From Paraburkholderia caballeronis (lineage in GTDB: Bacteria > Pseudomonadota > Gammaproteobacteria > Burkholderiales > Burkholderiaceae), in NCBI RefSeq assembly GCF_900104845.1, contig NZ_FNSR01000001.1, forward strand, positions 1,612,001 to 1,676,000: a DNA stretch of 64,000 nt. Direction: 5' to 3'. The notes under the pieces were generated by a model. It was not told where the DNA came from. It worked only from the letters and a program-made list of their open reading frames with translations, and searched no databases. Positions within the stretch are counted from its first letter, which is position 1, and the number at the start of each line of letters is the position of its first letter. Shown piece by piece: positions 101 through 9,451 of the stretch. Made by a program: the position numbers and the translations under genes.

Positions 101-742
101 TCAGCGCGACCTGCTTTTCGCGCTCTTTTTCGCGGCCACGGGCCTGCGCGTTTCCTTCTGCGCGACCGGCGCATCACCGCCGTTCAACTGCTCCATCCAC
201 GACAGCGCGTCGACGTACGACAGGAACTGCTCCAGATAACCGGGCGACAGCTCGCGCATCAGCGACAGCGACCGGTGCACGAGGCTGCTCGAATTCAGCG
301 GCCCCGCGTTCGTCGGCACCTGGTCGCGCGACTGGCGCACCTGCCGTTCGGCGCTCACGCGCGACCAGGTTTTCCTGAAGTAATCGAGCATCTCCAGCTC
401 GGGCCACGCGCCAGCGCGGGGCATCGCGCGAGCGGCGCGCGCCTGGTTCGCGATGTAGTCGTTCAGGTCTGCGAGACCGTTGGCCGTTTCGCGCTGCGTG
501 TCCTTCTCGCCGGCCGCCGCCGTTGCGGACGATGCCCGCTCGACATCGTCCGCATACGCGGCGACCAGCGCATCGAGCCGTGCATCCAGCACGCGCCGCG
601 CGTCGCCGCCGTGACGCGACGCACGCCGCTCCAGCGCGTCGATCAACCCGAAGCGCACCGGATCGAGACGATCCATGCCGCGCTCCCGCCACGCATCGAG
701 CCGTGCGCGCGCGCGGGTCGTCGTCTGGGTTTCGTCAGTCAT
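101..742 (-). CDS. DUF2894 domain protein
   Basis: This 213-residue soluble protein has no signal peptide or membrane segment. It matches the DUF2894 family as I remember it, a family seen in Burkholderia and relatives next to DUF3348 and DUF802 genes. The C-terminal 20 or so residues are lysine/arginine-rich and probably disordered. Its start overlaps the stop of the upstream OmpA-family gene by 8 bp, so the two are very likely translationally coupled. It is the last gene of a four-gene minus-strand cluster. The function is unknown; by context it may be an accessory factor of the MotA/MotB-like pair upstream. Confidence 0.75.
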   Translation of the reverse strand: MTDETQTTTRARARLDAWRERGMDRLDPVRFGLIDALERRASRHGGDARRVLDARLDALVAAYADDVERASSATAAAGEKDTQRETANGLADLNDYIANQARAARAMPRAGAWPELEMLDYFRKTWSRVSAERQVRQSRDQVPTNAGPLNSSSLVHRSLSLMRELSPGYLEQFLSYVDALSWMEQLNGGDAPVAQKETRRPVAAKKSAKSRSR

Positions 743-1382
743 GGCGCGCGCCGTCGGCGACCGACGACTTCGGCACCGCCGCGATCTCGACGCGCCGGTT
801 GCGCGCGCGGCCCGCGTCGTCCGCGTTCGAACTGACCGGCTGCTCGGACCCGAACGCGGCCGCGAACACCGACGACGCCGGCAGGCCTTCGTCGACGAAC
901 GCGCGCGTGACGGTCAGCGCGCGCTCGGCCGACAGTTCCCAGTTGTCCGCGAAGCGCCGGTTGCCCGAGCGGACCTGGCGGTCGTCCGCGAAGCCGCTGA
1001 CCATCAGGATTTCGTCATGCGTCTTCAGATACGCGGCGAGCGGCCCCGCGAGGCTCTTCAGCAGCTCGCGGCCGGCCGGCTGCAACTGGTCCGAGTTCAG
1101 CGCGAACAGCACCGCGCCGTTGATGCCGATGCGTCCGTTCACGAGCGTCACGCGGCCGGCCGCGAGCGGGCCGGCCAGCGCCTGTTCGAGCGTCTTGCGG
1201 CGCTGCGTTTCGAGCTGCCGCTGCCGGACCTCGTGGTCGAGCCGCGACGACAGTTCGAGCTGCACGCCGATCACGCTGACGAGGATCAGCACGAACGCGC
1301 CGAGCAGCACCGACATCAGGTCGCCGAACGCGGCCCAGATCGGCGTCGTCGATTCGACGCCGCCGTCGATTTCGTCGTTCAT
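735..1382 (-). CDS. OmpA/MotB-like membrane protein
   Basis: The product has 215 residues. A short cytoplasmic N-terminus is followed by one membrane segment at about residues 14-37 and then a periplasmic OmpA-like domain with the usual C-terminal NRRVEI signature. The membrane segment has the pattern W16-A-A-F-G-D21, which is how MotB/TolR/ExbD-type stator subunits place their ion-carrying aspartate (known of the family). The start was chosen at the Met just after the upstream stop, 5 bp away. It lies directly downstream of the DUF802 MotA/TolQ-like gene, which suggests they form one ion-driven complex. The OmpA domain should bind peptidoglycan. Flagellar MotB is an alternative name, but no flagellar genes are nearby. 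Confidence 0.8.
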   Translation of the reverse strand: MNDEIDGGVESTTPIWAAFGDLMSVLLGAFVLILVSVIGVQLELSSRLDHEVRQRQLETQRRKTLEQALAGPLAAGRVTLVNGRIGINGAVLFALNSDQLQPAGRELLKSLAGPLAAYLKTHDEILMVSGFADDRQVRSGNRRFADNWELSAERALTVTRAFVDEGLPASSVFAAAFGSEQPVSSNADDAGRARNRRVEIAAVPKSSVADGARHD

Positions 1383-1387
1383 GCCGG

Positions 1388-3997
1388 TCAGTCTCCGAGA
1401 CTTGCGCGCGAATCGGCGAGCCGTTGCAGATCGTCGATGATCTGCTTCTGCGACAGCACGCTCAGATCGACGACCTCGCGCGCCTGCGCGACGTAATACG
1501 CGAGCTGTTCGTCGCTGCGCGCGAGCGATTTGTCGAGCGCGGCCTCGATGCGTTGCAGGTGCTCGACGAGCTTGTCGTTCGATGCGCCGAACCGTTGCAC
1601 CGCCGCGCCAAACGTTTCGCCGAGGCTCGCGACTTCGACCGCGCTGCCGGTCATCTGCGCGGCGACCTCGTCCAGCCGGCGCGCGCCGTGGTCGACCTGC
1701 GCGCCGAAGCGGCCGCCGACGCGTTCGAGCAGATCGGCCGACGTCGACACGAGCGCGTCGATGGCCGTGCGCTGATCGGTGGACGCGTGGTTCACCGCGT
1801 CGAGCAGCGTGCCGAGCGTGTCGAGCAGGCGGTTGCGTTCGTCGAGCATCGCGGTGTCGCGCGCCATGCTGTCGGCCAGATTCGCGCGCAGTTCGGCGAT
1901 CACGTCGGCGGCGGCCTTCGGCGCTTCGGAGGCGGCATCGACGAGGCGGGCGATTTCCGCGATCGTTTCGGCCGCGTGCTGGTGCGTCTGTTCGGTGATC
2001 TGCTGGGCGGTTTTTGCAAGCGTGTCGCAGATTTGCTGCTGCTGCGCTGCCGCCTGTTCGCCGGTCTGCTGCCAGTCGTTGCGCAACGTGGTGGCGGTCG
2101 CGGCGAGCGAGTCGGTCCACGCCGCAAGCCGTTGCTCGTCGCGCGAGGCCAGTTCCGTCATCAGATCGGCGGCGGCCTTCGGCGCTTCGGAGGCGGCATC
2201 GACGAGGCGGGATATCTCCGCGATCGTTTCGGCCGCGTGCTGGTGCGTTTGTTCGGTGATCTGCTGGGCGGTTTTGGCAAGCGTGTCGCAGATTTGCTGC
2301 TGTCGTGCTGCCGCCTGCTCGCCGGTCTGCTGCCAGTCGTTGCGCAACGTGGTGGCGATAGCGGCGAGCGAGTCGGTCCATGCGGCGAGCCGCTGCTCGT
2401 CGCGCGAGGCGAGTTCCGTCATCAGATCGGCGGCGGCCTTCGGCGCTTCGGATGCGGCATCGACGAGGCGGGCGATTTCCGCGATCGTTTCGGCCGCGTG
2501 CAGGTGCGTTTGTTCGGTGATCTGCTGGGCGGTTCTTGCAAGCGTGTCGCAGATTTGCTGCTGCTGCGCCGCCGCCTGCTCGCCGGTCTGCTGCCAGTCG
2601 TTGCGCAACATGGTGGCGGTCGCGGCGAGCGAGTCGGTCCATGCGGCGAGCCGCTGCTCGTCGCGCGAGGCGAGTTCGGCTTGCAGGTTCGCGTGCGACT
2701 GATCGATCGTCTGAAGCAGCGACGCCGCGTGCCGCTCGAACGTCGCGGCCGCCGCTTCGAGCGCGCGCCGATGGTCGTCCGCGAGTTTTTCACCGGACTG
2801 CTGCTGCTGCGACAGCGCCTCGCGCCACGCGGTCGATGCGCGATCGACGGCCGTTTCCGCGCGCGACGACACGCGGTCCACGAGGTCCGTCGAACGCTGG
2901 TCGAACGTCGCCGCGAACTGGTCGAGCGACGCGCGCAGTTGCTGAACCAGCGTCTCGCCCGACTGCCGTTGCTGCGCGAGCGCATCGGTCCACGTGCTCG
3001 CGACGGTCTTCGTCGTCGCTTCGAAGCCGCTCGACAATCCGTCCAGATGCCGCTCGACCGACTGCGAAACGGACGCGTGCAGCGCGGCCGTCTCGCGCGC
3101 GAGGCCAGCCATCGTCGCCTCGACGACCGGCGCGAGCGCGGCGCCCGCGATGCGCGCGCTGTCGGCGGCGCTGTCCTTCAGCGACTGCCCGACCGACGAC
3201 GCAAGGCGCGCATACGCGGTCTGCGCATGATCGAGAAACGCCTGCTGGCTCGCGATCTGCCGTTCGTTCGACGCGGCGCCTTGCTGCTCCAGCGTCGCGA
3301 TCATCGTTTGCAGGCGATCGACCAGCGCGGGCATCGCGTCGGCCTGCCGCTGCATCAGCCGGAACGTTTCGTCGCGCTGATGCGCGTGCGAGAAGACGCG
3401 CAGCGTGGTCGCGATCTTTGCGTCGAGCCGTTGCGTGACTTCGGCGCGCTCGCGCCGGTACAGCGCGGACAGCAGCCCGAGCATCGCGGACGTCGCGACG
3501 CCCGCGATCGACGTGCCGAACGCGAAGCCGAGCCCCTTGACCGGCGCGGCGAGCGACGCGCGGATCGCGTCGAGGTCGGCTGCGCTGTCGAGCGCGGTGC
3601 CGGTGCCGCGCAGCGTCGCGACCATGCCGAGCAGCGTGCCGAGCATCCCGAGCAGCACCAGCAGACCGACCAGATACGGCGTCAGCGCCGGCCCCGGCAG
3701 CGCGGCGCGCGCGCCTTCGATGCGCATCCGCACCGCGCCGCGCAGGCCCGGATGCAGCCGGTCGAGCCAGTCCGCGAGCCCGCCCGGCGGCGTATCGAGG
3801 CTCGCGAGCGCGTGGGCGAGCGTCGAGGTGGCCTGGCGGTAGCGATACAGTTCGACCGCGCCCGCGACGTAACACGCGCCGATCAGCAGCGTGACGGCGG
3901 ATGCGAGCGGATTCGCGACGAGGTAGCCGCCGCCGATCCAGCACACGGCGGCCAATCCCGCGAGGAAAACAGGTATATCGATGCGAAATCTGGACAT
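1388..3997 (-). CDS. DUF802 protein: MotA/TolQ/ExbB-like with long coiled-coil tail
   Basis: The product has 869 residues. Predicted membrane segments lie at about 9-27, 31-48, 107-128 and 157-179. The last two show the glycine-rich pattern of MotA/TolQ/ExbB proton channels (GMLGTLLGM and GLGFAFGTSIAG). From about residue 185 to the C-terminus the protein is alanine-, glutamine- and glutamate-rich and should form a long cytoplasmic coiled coil. It includes three near-identical 87-residue repeats at about 442-700. The start at 3997 precedes the first hydrophobic segment; an in-frame extension to 4153 overlaps the upstream gene and has no such logic. It lies between DUF3348 and the OmpA/MotB-like gene. 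Known family: DUF802 (function unknown). Inference: the channel half of an ion-driven complex with a long cytoplasmic tail. Confidence 0.8.
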   Translation of the reverse strand: MSRFRIDIPVFLAGLAAVCWIGGGYLVANPLASAVTLLIGACYVAGAVELYRYRQATSTLAHALASLDTPPGGLADWLDRLHPGLRGAVRMRIEGARAALPGPALTPYLVGLLVLLGMLGTLLGMVATLRGTGTALDSAADLDAIRASLAAPVKGLGFAFGTSIAGVATSAMLGLLSALYRRERAEVTQRLDAKIATTLRVFSHAHQRDETFRLMQRQADAMPALVDRLQTMIATLEQQGAASNERQIASQQAFLDHAQTAYARLASSVGQSLKDSAADSARIAGAALAPVVEATMAGLARETAALHASVSQSVERHLDGLSSGFEATTKTVASTWTDALAQQRQSGETLVQQLRASLDQFAATFDQRSTDLVDRVSSRAETAVDRASTAWREALSQQQQSGEKLADDHRRALEAAAATFERHAASLLQTIDQSHANLQAELASRDEQRLAAWTDSLAATATMLRNDWQQTGEQAAAQQQQICDTLARTAQQITEQTHLHAAETIAEIARLVDAASEAPKAAADLMTELASRDEQRLAAWTDSLAAIATTLRNDWQQTGEQAAARQQQICDTLAKTAQQITEQTHQHAAETIAEISRLVDAASEAPKAAADLMTELASRDEQRLAAWTDSLAATATTLRNDWQQTGEQAAAQQQQICDTLAKTAQQITEQTHQHAAETIAEIARLVDAASEAPKAAADVIAELRANLADSMARDTAMLDERNRLLDTLGTLLDAVNHASTDQRTAIDALVSTSADLLERVGGRFGAQVDHGARRLDEVAAQMTGSAVEVASLGETFGAAVQRFGASNDKLVEHLQRIEAALDKSLARSDEQLAYYVAQAREVVDLSVLSQKQIIDDLQRLADSRASLGD
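1891..2673 (-). repeat. three 261-bp in-frame tandem repeats
   Basis: The segment starting near 2673 and read on the minus strand repeats three times with a period of exactly 261 bp (87 codons). Landmarks recur at 2162 and 2423 and at 2133, 2394 and 2655. The copies differ at scattered positions only. Each encodes a coiled-coil block beginning ASRDEQRLAAW and ending SEAPKAAAD. Confidence 0.9.
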
Positions 3998-4007
3998 GTC
4001 GTCTGGG

Positions 4008-4742
4008 TTAGCGGGTGCGAAGGGCCGCGAGCAGCCCTTCGACCGGTTGAAACCGAACGTCGAGTTCGGCGAGCAATACGCTCTGCATATCGGTGCGAAA
4101 CGCGCGCAGCCATGCGCCGGGCGCGGCGGCGCGCGTTTCGGTTGTGTCGGCATCGGCCGCCGGCGTCGGCTGTTGCGCGTCGCGCAGGCGTTCGAAGTGC
4201 GCGCCGAGCAGCGCCGGCACGGTCGCGAACAGGCCGCGCTCGCGCGCGCCGAGCGCGCGTTCCATCGCGGCGTCGACGGTCGCGAGCCGGGCCATCTCCG
4301 GTCCCATCGCGGCGACCATCACGCGCAGCCGCGCGCGCAGGTCGCCGAGGTCCGTCTCCATCGCCTGCTGGACCGCCAGGTAACGCTGCCGGAAGTCCGC
4401 GTAGTCGGCGGTCGTGTCCGCCGCGGCGGCGGCCTGCGCCGCCGATGCGCCGCGCATGGACGGCGCGCGCGTTGCCGCGGTGATTGCGCCCGTCAACGAC
4501 CGGCGCGCGTGCGCGCACAGGCTCGATGCGTCGCCGCCGGCGGCCTGCGCGAAGCGCGCGGCCGCGGGCGGCGCGCCCGCGAGCGCCGTGGACAGCGTGA
4601 TCGCGTCGGTCCAGCCGAGCCATTCGCTCAGCCGGTCCGACAGCGACTGCCGGGATTCGGAGACGTCGACGTCCGCGATGCGCGCAAGCAGGCGAACCAG
4701 CGTCGGGCCGCGGACCGCCGTGCGCTGAAGAGCTTGCACCAT
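4008..4742 (-). CDS. DUF3348 domain protein
   Basis: This 244-residue soluble protein has no signal peptide. It fits DUF3348, a family of unknown function found almost entirely in Burkholderiales as I recall it. It is the first gene of the minus-strand cluster DUF3348, DUF802, OmpA-like, DUF2894, and its stop lies 10 bp before the DUF802 start, so the genes are probably one operon. The middle is alanine/arginine-rich and helical in appearance, with no enzyme motif that I recognise. The role is unknown; genomic linkage suggests it works with the MotA/MotB-like pair. Confidence 0.75.
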   Translation of the reverse strand: MVQALQRTAVRGPTLVRLLARIADVDVSESRQSLSDRLSEWLGWTDAITLSTALAGAPPAAARFAQAAGGDASSLCAHARRSLTGAITAATRAPSMRGASAAQAAAAADTTADYADFRQRYLAVQQAMETDLGDLRARLRVMVAAMGPEMARLATVDAAMERALGARERGLFATVPALLGAHFERLRDAQQPTPAADADTTETRAAAPGAWLRAFRTDMQSVLLAELDVRFQPVEGLLAALRTR

Positions 4743-5113: not shown

Positions 5114-6922
5114 ATGAAGCGAATGTCGTTGAACCGGAAAGCATGGAGCATCGTCGGTCTGCTATGGATCGCACTCATCGTGCTGGTGGTCATGAACGCA
5201 ATCATGACGCGCTCGTCGATGCTCGACGAGCGCAGGAGCGAACTCGCGCAGCAGACGCAAATCGCGATGGGCGTGATCGGCTCGTATCAGAAGAAGGTCG
5301 GCACGAAGGAACTCACGGTGGACGACGCGAAGCGCGCGGCGATCGCGGCGCTGCGCGACGTGCGCTACGGTGCGGACCGCAGCGGCTATTTCGGCGTCTA
5401 CGATTCGTCGCTGATCGCGCTGCTCGTGCCGCCGAAGCCCGAACTCGAATCGAAGGACCAGTCCGGCATGGTCGATGCGAACGGCACGCACATCGCGGTC
5501 GAGATCGTGAAGAGTTCGTCGCCGGGCGGCAATCATCTGAGCGCCTATGTGTGGCCGAAGCCGGGCCACGACGCGCCGGTCGCGAAGATCACCTATAGCG
5601 ACGCGGTGCCCGAATGGGACTGGCACGTGTTCACCGGCGCGTACGTGGACGACATCGACGACATGTTCTACGGCGCGCTGGTGCGCAATCTCGTGCTGGT
5701 CGTGGTGATCGGCGCGTGCGTGACGCTCGGGATGCTGTGGCTGATCCGCAGCATCCGCACGAGCCTCGGCGGCGAGCCGGATCTCGCGGCGGACCTGTGC
5801 CGGCAGATCGCGGCGGGCGACCTGACGACGAAGGTCGAGCCGCGCAGCGGCGACAGCGGCAGCCTCCTGTACGCGATGGGCCAGATGCAGCGGCAACTGG
5901 TCGATACGGTGCGGCGCATCCAGGCGTCGGCCGAGTCGATCACGACCGGCACGAACGAGATCGCGGCGGGCAACATGGACCTGTCGTCGCGCACCGAGCA
6001 GCAGGCCGCGTCGCTCGAAGAGACGGCGGCCAGCATGGCCGAGCTGACGTCGACGGTGAAGCAGAACACCGAGAACGCGCGGCAGGGCACGACGCTCGCG
6101 CAGAGCGCGTCGGAGATCGCGGCGCGCGGCGGCGACGTGGTGCGCCGCGTGGTCGAGACGATGCACGACATCTCCGGCACGTCGGAGCGGGTCGAGCAGA
6201 TCATCGGCGTGATTGACGGGATCGCCTTCCAGACCAACATCCTCGCGCTGAACGCGGCGGTCGAGGCCGCGCGCGCGGGCGAGCAGGGGCGCGGGTTCGC
6301 GGTGGTCGCGTCCGAGGTGCGCAGCCTCGCGCAGCGCAGCGCGAGCGCGGCGAAGGAGATCAAGGACCTGATCGGGCAGTCGGTCGCGCAGGTGAACGAA
6401 GGCTCGCGGCTCGTCGACGAGGCGGGCGCGACGATCGACGAAGTGGTGAAGTCCGCGCGACGCGTCGCCGACCTGATGGGCGAGATCGCGTCCGCGTCGG
6501 AAGAGCAGCACACCGGGATCGAGCAGGTGAACCAGGCGGTGTCGCAGATGGACGCGGTCACGCAGCAGAACGCGGCGCTCGTCGAGGAGGCGTCGGCGGC
6601 CGCGCAATCGATGGCCGCGCAGTCGAACGGGCTGCGCGAGGTCGTCGCGACGTTCAGGCTCGGAGCGGACGGGGCGCGGTCGGCGGCTGCGAATGCGGCG
6701 ACCGCTGCCGGGCGCGGCGGTGCTTCGAGCGCGCCGCGTCCCGCCGTGCGGCGGACCGAGCCGACCATTGCGGCCGGGGCGTCGGCCGCATCCGCGAAGC
6801 CGGCCGCGCCGGCGAAACCCGTGAGGACGAAGCCGGTCGCGTCGGCTGCTGCCGCTGCGAAACCGGCGGCGTCCGCCGCGCCGGCACAGACCGCCAGTTC
6901 GGAGGACTGGGAGACGTTCTGA
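5114..6922 (+). CDS. methyl-accepting chemotaxis protein (single Cache)
   Basis: The product is a 602-residue chemoreceptor. Membrane segments at about 11-30 and 192-211 bracket a periplasmic sensing domain of the single-Cache type (residues about 38-185, with GYFGVYD). A HAMP-like linker and the methyl-accepting signalling domain follow. The conserved hairpin tip [20 protein letters not shown] is at about 370-390, so it should couple to CheW/CheA. After an alanine/proline-rich linker the protein ends in DWETF, matching the known CheR/CheB-binding pentapeptide (NWETF type). No che genes lie nearby, so it is an orphan receptor. A second ATG nine bases downstream (5123) is equally possible as the start. 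The ligand cannot be told; this Cache type often senses small organic acids. Confidence 0.9.
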
Positions 6923-7201: not shown

Positions 7202-8659
7202 TCAATCGTCGCGCGGCAGCGTCAATTCCGCGTCCAGCCCCGCGATCCGTCCCGCTTCGATCCGGTTGGTCAGCACCAGCGTTCCGCCATGCGCGGCCGC
7301 GATGCTGCGCGCGATCGTGAGCCCGAGGCCGGTGCCGCCCGGCGCTCCGTCGGCCTTCGGCGCGAGCCGGAAGTACGGCTCGAACACGCGCTCGCGCAGC
7401 GCGTCGTCCGCGATGCCGGGACCGCGATCGGCGATCACGATGCGCACGCGGCGGCCGTCGTCGTGCACGCCGATCGCCGCTTCGTTTCCATGGCGGATCG
7501 CGTTGTCGAGCAGGTTCTGAAGACAGCGTTTCAGGTTGCGCGGAAAACCCGCGACCGGCAGCCGCGCCGTACCTTCGACGCTCACGCGATGTCCCGCTTC
7601 GCGCGCATCGAGCGCGAGGCCTTCGAGCATCGAATCGACGTCGATCCGCTGCCGCGCCTCGGTGATTTCGATGCCCTGCACCGCGTCGAGCGTCGCGCGG
7701 ACCATCGCTTCCATGTCGTCGAGATCGCCGCGCAGCCGTTCGCGCCACGCCGGGTCGGGCAGCATCTCGGTGCGCAGGCGCAGCCGCGTCAACGGCGAAC
7801 GCAGGTCGTGCGACACCGCGCTCAGGAAACGCGTGCGCGCGGCGAAACTGTCGATCAGCTGCTGCTGCATCGCGTTGAACGAGCGCGCCGCGCGGCGCAC
7901 CTCGCGCGGGCCGCCGACCGGCAGCGGCGCGCGATAGATGTTGCGGCCGAGCGATTCGGCCGCGACGGCGAAGCGGTGCAGCGGGTTCAGCGCGAGCCGC
8001 ACCGCGATCAGCGCGAGCGCGCAGATCGCGACGAAGCGGATCAGATAGATGCGCAGCAGGTAGTCGAGCACGAGCGTCCCGCGCTCGGTGTGCATGCCGG
8101 CCTGGCCTTCGTTCGAGCGGATGTCGAGCCAGCCCTGGCCGGGCACCCGCAGTTGCACGTGGAAGTCGCCGGTCGGCATCCGCGAATCGAACAGGCTCAG
8201 GATGCCGCGGTGGCGGCCCGAGTCGTCGCGCACCTGCGCCTCGACGAGGCGCACGTCGATCGGCTCGCCGAGCCGCTTGCGGATCACGCCTTCGATCAGC
8301 TCGCCGGTCGCGTGCTGGGCGAGCGGCCGCGCGCCGGGGGCCGGCGGCGGCGCGGCGGCCAGCCATTGCAGTTGATAACGCGCGTCGCCGAGCCGCGCGA
8401 CGACCGCGTCGCGCGCGGCCGCGTCGGGCGCGCGTTCGAGCAGGCGCACGGTGTCCGCGAGGCGGCTCGCGAACAGCCGCGCCGGGATTTCGAGCGTGCG
8501 GTTGTCGTGCGTGTCGAACCAGATCGTGCTGGTCAGCAACTGGCCGGCGAACATGCCGGCCGCGAGGATCGCGACGAGCCGGCCGAACAGCGTGTCCGGC
8601 CACGCGCGCAGTCTCGCGAGCGCGCGCAGCGCGCGATGGACGCGATGTGCGCGGCTCAT
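7202..8659 (-). CDS. sensor histidine kinase (EnvZ-type)
   Basis: The product has 485 residues. An N-terminal membrane segment at about 27-48, a periplasmic domain and a second membrane segment near 190-210 are followed by HAMP, the phospho-acceptor motif SHDLRSPLTRLRLR (His near 281) and an HATPase domain with N-box NAIRHGN and G-boxes DRGPGIA and GGTGLGL. It is a complete EnvZ-like kinase. Its ATG overlaps the stop of the response regulator by 4 bp (ATGA), so the two are coupled. The signal is unknown. The divergent neighbour is an iron/siderophore importer, which is a possible target. Confidence 0.9.
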   Translation of the reverse strand: MSRAHRVHRALRALARLRAWPDTLFGRLVAILAAGMFAGQLLTSTIWFDTHDNRTLEIPARLFASRLADTVRLLERAPDAAARDAVVARLGDARYQLQWLAAAPPPAPGARPLAQHATGELIEGVIRKRLGEPIDVRLVEAQVRDDSGRHRGILSLFDSRMPTGDFHVQLRVPGQGWLDIRSNEGQAGMHTERGTLVLDYLLRIYLIRFVAICALALIAVRLALNPLHRFAVAAESLGRNIYRAPLPVGGPREVRRAARSFNAMQQQLIDSFAARTRFLSAVSHDLRSPLTRLRLRTEMLPDPAWRERLRGDLDDMEAMVRATLDAVQGIEITEARQRIDVDSMLEGLALDAREAGHRVSVEGTARLPVAGFPRNLKRCLQNLLDNAIRHGNEAAIGVHDDGRRVRIVIADRGPGIADDALRERVFEPYFRLAPKADGAPGGTGLGLTIARSIAAAHGGTLVLTNRIEAGRIAGLDAELTLPRDD

Positions 8660-9369
8660 GCTTCGTACGCGACGTCGGCGACCAGCATGTAACCCTCGTT
8701 GCGCACGGTGCGGATCAGCGACGCGTTGCGCGCCGAGTCCTTCAGGTGATGCCGCAGCCGGCTCACGCAGACGTCGATCGACCGGTCGAGCGGCGTCATG
8801 CCTTTGTCGAACACGCGGTCGAGCAGGAATTCGCGCGACAGCGGCCGGTTCGGATGGTCGAGCAGCGTGCGCAGCGTCCGGTAGTCCGAACCGCCGAGCG
8901 ACACGACGATGCCGTCCGGCGAGCACATCTGCTTCATCCGCGTGTCGAGCCGCCAGCCGGCGAACTTCACGAACGCGCTCGCGTCGGCCGCGCGCGCGCC
9001 GGGCGCCGCGCGCGTGCGGCGCAGCACGACCTTGATCTTCGCGACCAGTTCGCGCGGGTCGAACGGCTTCGGCAGATAGTCGTCGGCGCCCATCTCCAGC
9101 CCGAGTATCCGGTCGAGCAGGCCGCCGCGCGCGGACAGGATGATGACCGGCACGCCGTGCTCGCGGCACAGGTCGCGGGTCAGGTCGAGACCATCCTCGC
9201 CGTCGAGCATCAGGTCGAGCACGACCAGATCGACCGGCGCGGTCTTCAGGATCTGCTTCATCTGCGCGCCGCCGGTCGCGGCGGCGGCGTCGTAGCCCAT
9301 CTCGCGCAGGTAGTCGCGCAGCAGTTGGCGGATGTTGGGATCGTCGTCGACGACCAGGATGTGATCCAT
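8656..9369 (-). CDS. OmpR-family response regulator
   Basis: The product has 237 residues. The receiver domain has the acidic pocket D8-D10, the phosphorylated Asp D52 (in VVLDLML) and the conserved K101 (in LPKPFDP). A winged-helix DNA-binding domain follows (SIDVCVSRLRHHLKD and a C-terminal RTVRNEGYML). The start at 9369 was chosen because it begins directly with the receiver strand (MDHILVVDDD); a 13-residue extension is unlikely. It is the first gene of a two-gene operon with its kinase. Two direct copies of a 19-20 bp box lie just upstream and suggest autoregulation. Confidence 0.92.
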   Translation of the reverse strand: MDHILVVDDDPNIRQLLRDYLREMGYDAAAATGGAQMKQILKTAPVDLVVLDLMLDGEDGLDLTRDLCREHGVPVIILSARGGLLDRILGLEMGADDYLPKPFDPRELVAKIKVVLRRTRAAPGARAADASAFVKFAGWRLDTRMKQMCSPDGIVVSLGGSDYRTLRTLLDHPNRPLSREFLLDRVFDKGMTPLDRSIDVCVSRLRHHLKDSARNASLIRTVRNEGYMLVADVAYEA

Positions 9370-9400
9370 CGCGTTCTCTTGTTGTCGCGGACCTTCGGGC

Positions 9401-9451
9401 CAACACATTCCATTACAAAACGGCCGCGTTTCAACACATCGCCATTACAAA
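9401..9451. promoter_or_regulatory. direct-repeat boxes upstream of the response regulator
   Basis: CAACACATTCCATTACAAA at 9401-9419 is repeated at 9432-9451 as CAACACATCGCCATTACAAA. The CCATTACAAA cores are 32 bp apart, about three helical turns. Paired direct repeats are the usual target shape of OmpR-family regulators. They sit 32-82 bp before the regulator gene and also upstream of the divergent ABC operon. Confidence 0.55.

Follow-up and report, generated by a model that had tools for sequence, protein, structure and literature searches.

Zorya types I and II have in common a ZorA/ZorB pair with a long tail on ZorA and an ion-binding Asp and a peptidoglycan domain on ZorB, and they need the tail, the ZorB Asp and peptidoglycan binding (PMC11890865). 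Type I has in addition ZorC and ZorD, type II the HNH nickase ZorE. The same study suggests that all Zorya types recruit a nuclease, and it leaves open whether the ZorA rod rearranges or rotates. Zorya type III was named in 2021 from 6,401 gene pairs flanked by DUF3348 and DUF2894 genes. According to that report (PMC8565338), at least one phage plaqued less well on E. coli expressing a type III system from Stenotrophomonas, and the new Zorya types were patchy at genus level. The accessory genes that define type III are DUF3348 and DUF2894 (PMC8565338, PMC11890865).

Gene content and assignment of the locus

The locus studied here lies in the window, i.e. the whole stretch of 64,000 nucleotides of Paraburkholderia caballeronis DNA that was analyzed. 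It consists of four open frames at window positions 101-4742, all on the minus strand and in the order DUF3348, DUF802, OmpA, DUF2894. They are tightly packed, with gaps of 10 nt between DUF3348 and DUF802 and 5 nt between DUF802 and OmpA and an overlap of 8 nt between OmpA and DUF2894. The first (4008..4742) encodes a DUF3348 protein of 244 aa (PADLOC PDLC00656, E = 1.8e-91; PF11828, 4.7e-86). The second (1388..3997) encodes a type III ZorA of 869 aa with a motor domain and a long cytoplasmic tail (PADLOC ZorA3, E = 0; Pfam DUF802, 2e-29), and the third (735..1382) a type III ZorB of 215 aa with one transmembrane (TM) helix and an OmpA/MotB peptidoglycan-binding domain (PADLOC ZorB3, 3.3e-116; PF00691, 1.3e-17). 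The fourth (101..742) encodes a DUF2894 protein of 213 aa (PADLOC PDLC00652, 5.1e-80; PF11445, 7.6e-63). The PADLOC families matched are ZorG3 (DUF3348), ZorA3 (DUF802), ZorB3 (OmpA) and ZorF3 (DUF2894). Here the names ZorF and ZorG are swapped: in the papers DUF3348 is ZorF and DUF2894 is ZorG, in PADLOC-DB v2 (PDLC00652-PDLC00658) it is the opposite. Upstream of the four genes are a Cache-domain chemoreceptor (5114-6922, plus strand) and a response regulator with a DNA-binding domain (8656-9408, minus strand); on the opposite flank, in the genome just below the window (L233:5125-10759), lie a PQQ dehydrogenase and the cytochrome bd oxidase subunits I and II.

The initial annotation had seen a ZorA/ZorB-like architecture in the DUF802/OmpA pair, and the ZorA3 and ZorB3 matches bear this out. 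ZorA reached 1445.9 bits with ZorA3 versus 34.7 bits with the other types. A point against the assignment is that the NCBIfam ZorA models for types I and II remained far below their cut-offs (33.5 versus 190 and 19.2 versus 100 bits). The annotation had further proposed a different, still undescribed machine. This is refuted, since DUF3348 and DUF2894 are precisely the genes that define the described type III. Judged by sequence, the locus represents a known anti-phage system, Zorya type III: all four gene families and the neighborhood are alike and nothing was found that excludes membership, the difference being that the window's ZorA bears three near-identical 87-aa modules. In contrast to types I and II (PMC11890865), the system is without ZorC, ZorD or ZorE, which were absent among the four genes and 10 nearby proteins scanned, and neither a nuclease nor a helicase was recognized among its four proteins.

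The best explanation, which we regard as quite probable, is a Zorya type III system with a predicted ion-driven 5:2 rotary motor on the peptidoglycan, the tail of which likely engages two helical partners against phage. That the window's own copy serves in phage defense would follow by analogy.

Distribution and neighborhood

That the four genes form a conserved unit had been put forward as a point to check, and it holds. Counting the window's own genome, DUF3348, DUF2894 and ZorB3 each occurred in the same 109 of 117 genomes of the genus Paraburkholderia and were all absent from the other eight; extra matches in a few genomes were split or weak. The order of the four genes was kept in 40/40 loci fetched with flanks. 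PglZ from BREX, the sole control of its kind, was present in 7 of the same 117 genomes. At class level, ZorB3 was found in 10 of 369 genomes.

The near-universal presence in the genus is unlike that of a patchy defense gene and counts against the defense reading. It raises the question of whether a defense motor has become housekeeping. A first alternative is that these bacteria use the locus chiefly for housekeeping in the envelope (wall or outer-membrane work, like the Tol/Exb motors), and that E. coli is protected from phage only because the genes are overexpressed there. Besides the count for the genus, the frequency in the family speaks for it (98 of 150 genomes carry DUF3348, from 11 of 25 genera), as do the searches of phage, viral and plasmid sequences: DUF3348 had no match in 50,697 phage records, none of the 39 stretches of viral contigs that fitted the ZorB pattern encoded a relative, and ZorB occurred in only 27 of 72,556 plasmid records, each 366 kb or larger. 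Likewise, loci close to each other on the ZorAB tree (less than 0.1 changes per site) had at least two neighbor clusters in common in 6/6 pairs.

However, eight genomes of the genus lack the whole unit, and DUF2894 was found in a mere 17 of 300 genomes of the order, 5 of them from the same family and one below the cut-off. The neighbors vary between clades, no neighbor cluster recurring in more than 8 of 41 loci, and at least two clusters were common to 0/1 pairs at 0.1-0.2 changes per site, 9/24 at 0.2-0.4 and 25/179 over 0.4. In Dyella, which belongs to another order, ZorB of five loci is 78-81% identical to the window's (77-81% when counted by query segment rows), and these loci fall among the Burkholderiales on the tree (rooted at the midpoint for drawing only). 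Because neighbor sharing tracks the ZorAB distance and Dyella lies amid the Burkholderiales, the unit apparently stays where it is within a clade and has moved from one clade to another. Transfer involving Dyella, in one direction or the other, is likely. Transfer, as suggested by this identity, and the plaque reduction in E. coli (PMC8565338) also argue against housekeeping as the main role. Taken together, we consider that role unlikely and Zorya type III the better reading.

In one locus, L157 (G156:C2:486359-489531), DUF3348 and DUF2894 are retained, and the ZorB match covers no more than profile positions 1-161. This system looks decayed because only about 1.2 kb remain where ZorA should be.

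The motor domain, the partner proteins and a possible mechanism

The motor domain of ZorA, delimited by alignment, hydropathy and PDB profile, comprises residues 1-230 (3308..3997, minus strand). Hydropathy predicts TM helices near residues 10-28, 30-48, 109-127 and 158-176, and about 690 residues follow the last of them, in line with the channel helices and giant tail that had been noted at first sight. For ZorB a single TM helix is predicted (residues 22-40). The membrane Asp described for this single-pass OmpA/MotB-like protein, D21 (codon GAC at 1320..1322, minus strand), is the predicted ion-binding residue and was invariant in 12/12 aligned relatives, while T121, T162 and S163 of ZorA were invariant in 19/19 sequences of the motor-domain alignment. 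The locus thus possesses both a membrane Asp in ZorB and conserved Thr/Ser residues in the predicted channel helices of ZorA.

With a profile of the 19 ZorA motor domains, the sole solved relative below E 0.3 was the Zorya I ZorA from Shewanella (8VVN chain C, E = 2.6e-4); the alignment spans residues 109-195, i.e. the TM3-TM4 region. The ZorB profile matched the Zorya ZorB chains 8VVN chain B (3e-6, residues 9-202) and 8QYD chain F (5.5e-5, residues 10-199). The offset of the matched ranges in chain B (query 9, chain 12) fits D21 being the counterpart of D24 in the Zorya I ZorB.

A second alternative, that what looks like Zorya is really a stator of the flagellar type or a TolQR/ExbBD motor, would account for the common MotA/TolQ/ExbB and MotB/OmpA parts and for the scores of ZorB on many MotB/OmpA families (just PRK09040 above cut-off, among the best 25 of 35 families), but it is highly improbable given the full-length ZorA3 and ZorB3 matches far above other types, the PDB search with the ZorA profile, in which Zorya I ZorA appeared but, up to E = 1, none of MotA, TolQ and ExbB, and the fixed DUF3348 and DUF2894 partners. 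Compared with the stators MotAB and PomAB, the Asp in the MotB-like helix and the OmpA-like domain are alike, whereas the tail of about 690 aa and the two partners set the Zorya type III system of the window apart; no MotA family was found for ZorA in Pfam or NCBIfam at E 0.001.

The AlphaFold2 models of both partner proteins are all-helical (DUF3348: pLDDT 81.6, pTM 0.78; DUF2894: pLDDT 77.7, pTM 0.48). In a Foldseek search of the PDB neither model had a match reaching E 0.001, in Pfam both proteins were significant solely to their own DUF families, and no nuclease fold was seen in the models. This lack of matches is compatible with a catalytic role of DUF3348 or DUF2894. A type III system without a visible nuclease bears on the suggestion that all Zorya types recruit one (PMC11890865).

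Possibly, the system works as follows. Phage entry would disturb the cell wall and the OmpA domain of ZorB would grip the peptidoglycan; this step is modeled on the proposal for types I and II, where binding of the ZorB domains to peptidoglycan has been seen in vitro. Ions would then pass between D21 of ZorB and the Thr/Ser ring of ZorA, residues that are conserved, and ZorA would turn. The tail would transmit the torque as far as its conserved distal region, the presumed dock of ZorF and ZorG. As neither a nuclease nor a helicase comparable to ZorD and ZorE (types I and II) was recognized, the effector acting against the phage would likely be a host enzyme or an ion leak. In evolution, the tail changes in length by in-frame tandem modules that approximate whole helical turns, and the rod would thereby remain continuous.

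Modules in the tail of ZorA

In kind, the locus is an ordinary Zorya III; its unusual features are the register-keeping length changes of the tail and the near-universal distribution in the genus. In the open-licence literature searched (including PMC13192584 and PMC12904381) we found no description of either. The tail modules are the least expected result of the analysis. In the window, the proximal tail contains two DUF802 (PF05650) matches (2714..3037; genome 1614714-1614872 and 1614879-1615037). They are followed by a tandem array of three near-identical 261-bp units of 87 aa each (1905..2677) and by a distal tail of about 172 aa (1388..1904), whose counterpart in array-free relatives exceeds their mid tail in per-column conservation; all lie on the minus strand. 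Tandem Repeats Finder (TRF) reported a period of 261, 3.0 copies and 94% matches, and lag peaks were at 87 and 174. The initial annotation makes no mention of these modules. The hydrophobic stripe beyond the last TM helix has a period near 3.65 residues, as expected for a long helical rod, which the tail is predicted to be. The rise of an α-helix is 0.15 nm per residue; at this value 87 residues correspond to about 13 nm and the window's tail to about 96 nm.

For a survey of lengths, 101 of the 109 loci of the genus were fetched, the window included, and ZorA was readable in 100. In 65 of these its length fell on 698 + 87n residues with n = 0-4, the rungs being 697-699 (16 genomes), 784-785 (21), 871-872 (16), 959 (10) and 1046 (2). 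The remaining 35 were off this ladder, e.g. at 811-812 (7) and 756 (3); the window's ZorA, with 869 aa, is among them, 3 residues off the 872 rung. The favored period of the lengths in the genus (tested from 15 to 130) was 29 residues with R 0.77, while 87 gave R 0.63. When distinct lengths were counted once (32 clusters from 198 loci, some of them from the same species because named and unnamed sets overlap), significance was reached by neither period (87, p 0.79; 29, p 0.12); the 87 ladder thus belongs to some clades. Over the 198 loci the type III ZorA ranged from 627 to 1229 aa; within types I and II the size of the components is well conserved (PMC11890865).

Tandem arrays with a period of 60 bp or more were present in 71 of the 100 ZorA genes of the genus and in 57 of 98 others. 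In the array-free forms (n = 51) the mid tail was the least conserved part (0.67-0.74, columns 331-480), and the distal tail was better conserved (0.81-0.91, columns 481-690). Taking the best array per gene and leaving out one 400-bp array, we obtained 15 distinct whole-codon unit lengths: 22, 29, 33, 51, 58, 69, 76, 80, 87, 98, 102, 113, 131, 149 and 153 residues. All 15 lie at most 0.121 turn from a whole number of 3.64-residue turns. This fit was matched by 0 of 20,000 random sets, also with the period left free between 3.60 and 3.68, and the result was unchanged when units that are multiples of a smaller one were removed, leaving 11. The hydrophobic stripe had a period of 3.655 in all 198 tails, 3.665 in the 51 array-free tails and 3.625-3.63 in the window's array. 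For the module lengths the best fit is at 3.64, a value within the span of these stripe periods, with a mean cosine of 0.51 at 3.66 and 0.28 at 3.667. Because the fit is poor at 3.665, it is the array region, and not the array-free tail, whose pitch the modules follow. With module lengths close to whole numbers of turns, the tail would probably remain an unbroken rod as it lengthens or shortens. The register rule could stem from duplication between helical stretches that were already similar, rather than from selection.

Turnover of the modules was followed across 67 ladder genomes on a tree built from ZorB and residues 1-230 of ZorA, i.e. with the tail left out; rungs were given a 4-residue margin, which includes the window and one 702-aa form, and 34 of the 97 inner branches have support below 80. 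At least 27 rung changes are needed on this tree. ZorA lengths were equal in 16 of the 30 sister pairs. Among the 14 unequal pairs, three of which have support below 80, the length difference keeps register to within 0.1 turn in 12; in the other two, with differences of 174 and 123 residues, the deviation is about 0.2 turn. Alignments showed clean gaps in Pigmentiphaga litoralis (1217 versus 1130, one of 87), Burkholderia ubonensis (1015 versus 935, one of 80) and Cupriavidus oxalaticus (1132 versus 958, two of 87). Cupriavidus necator (1045 versus 958) gave a step of 87 as well, in a pair that at 82% identity is perhaps not one species; the alignment of the C. basilensis pair P0104/P0025 was without a clean step.

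Streptococcal M proteins are size-variable coiled coils with in-register repeats, and their length shifts by whole helical modules. In contrast to these, the modules of the window sit within the shaft of a predicted rotary motor. Tentatively, and with somewhat less than even confidence, Zorya III could be regarded as a rotary machine that is nearly core in Paraburkholderia and its kin, works without a nuclease and has a quantised drive-shaft tail, whose reach of about 60 to 150 nm is tuned in evolution by gain or loss of whole-turn modules just before the conserved docking end. If so, related strains would be natural experiments in shaft length: as the same motor carries tails that differ by whole modules, in some cases within a named species, length and register become separable in tests. 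Such relatives bear on the role of the ZorA tail in Zorya systems.

A ladder other than that of the window's genus also occurs: in nine Burkholderia that form one supported clade (L128, L135, L141, L142, L144, L147, L148, L150 and L151), ZorA has 1015, 935 or 775 residues, lengths that differ by multiples of 80.
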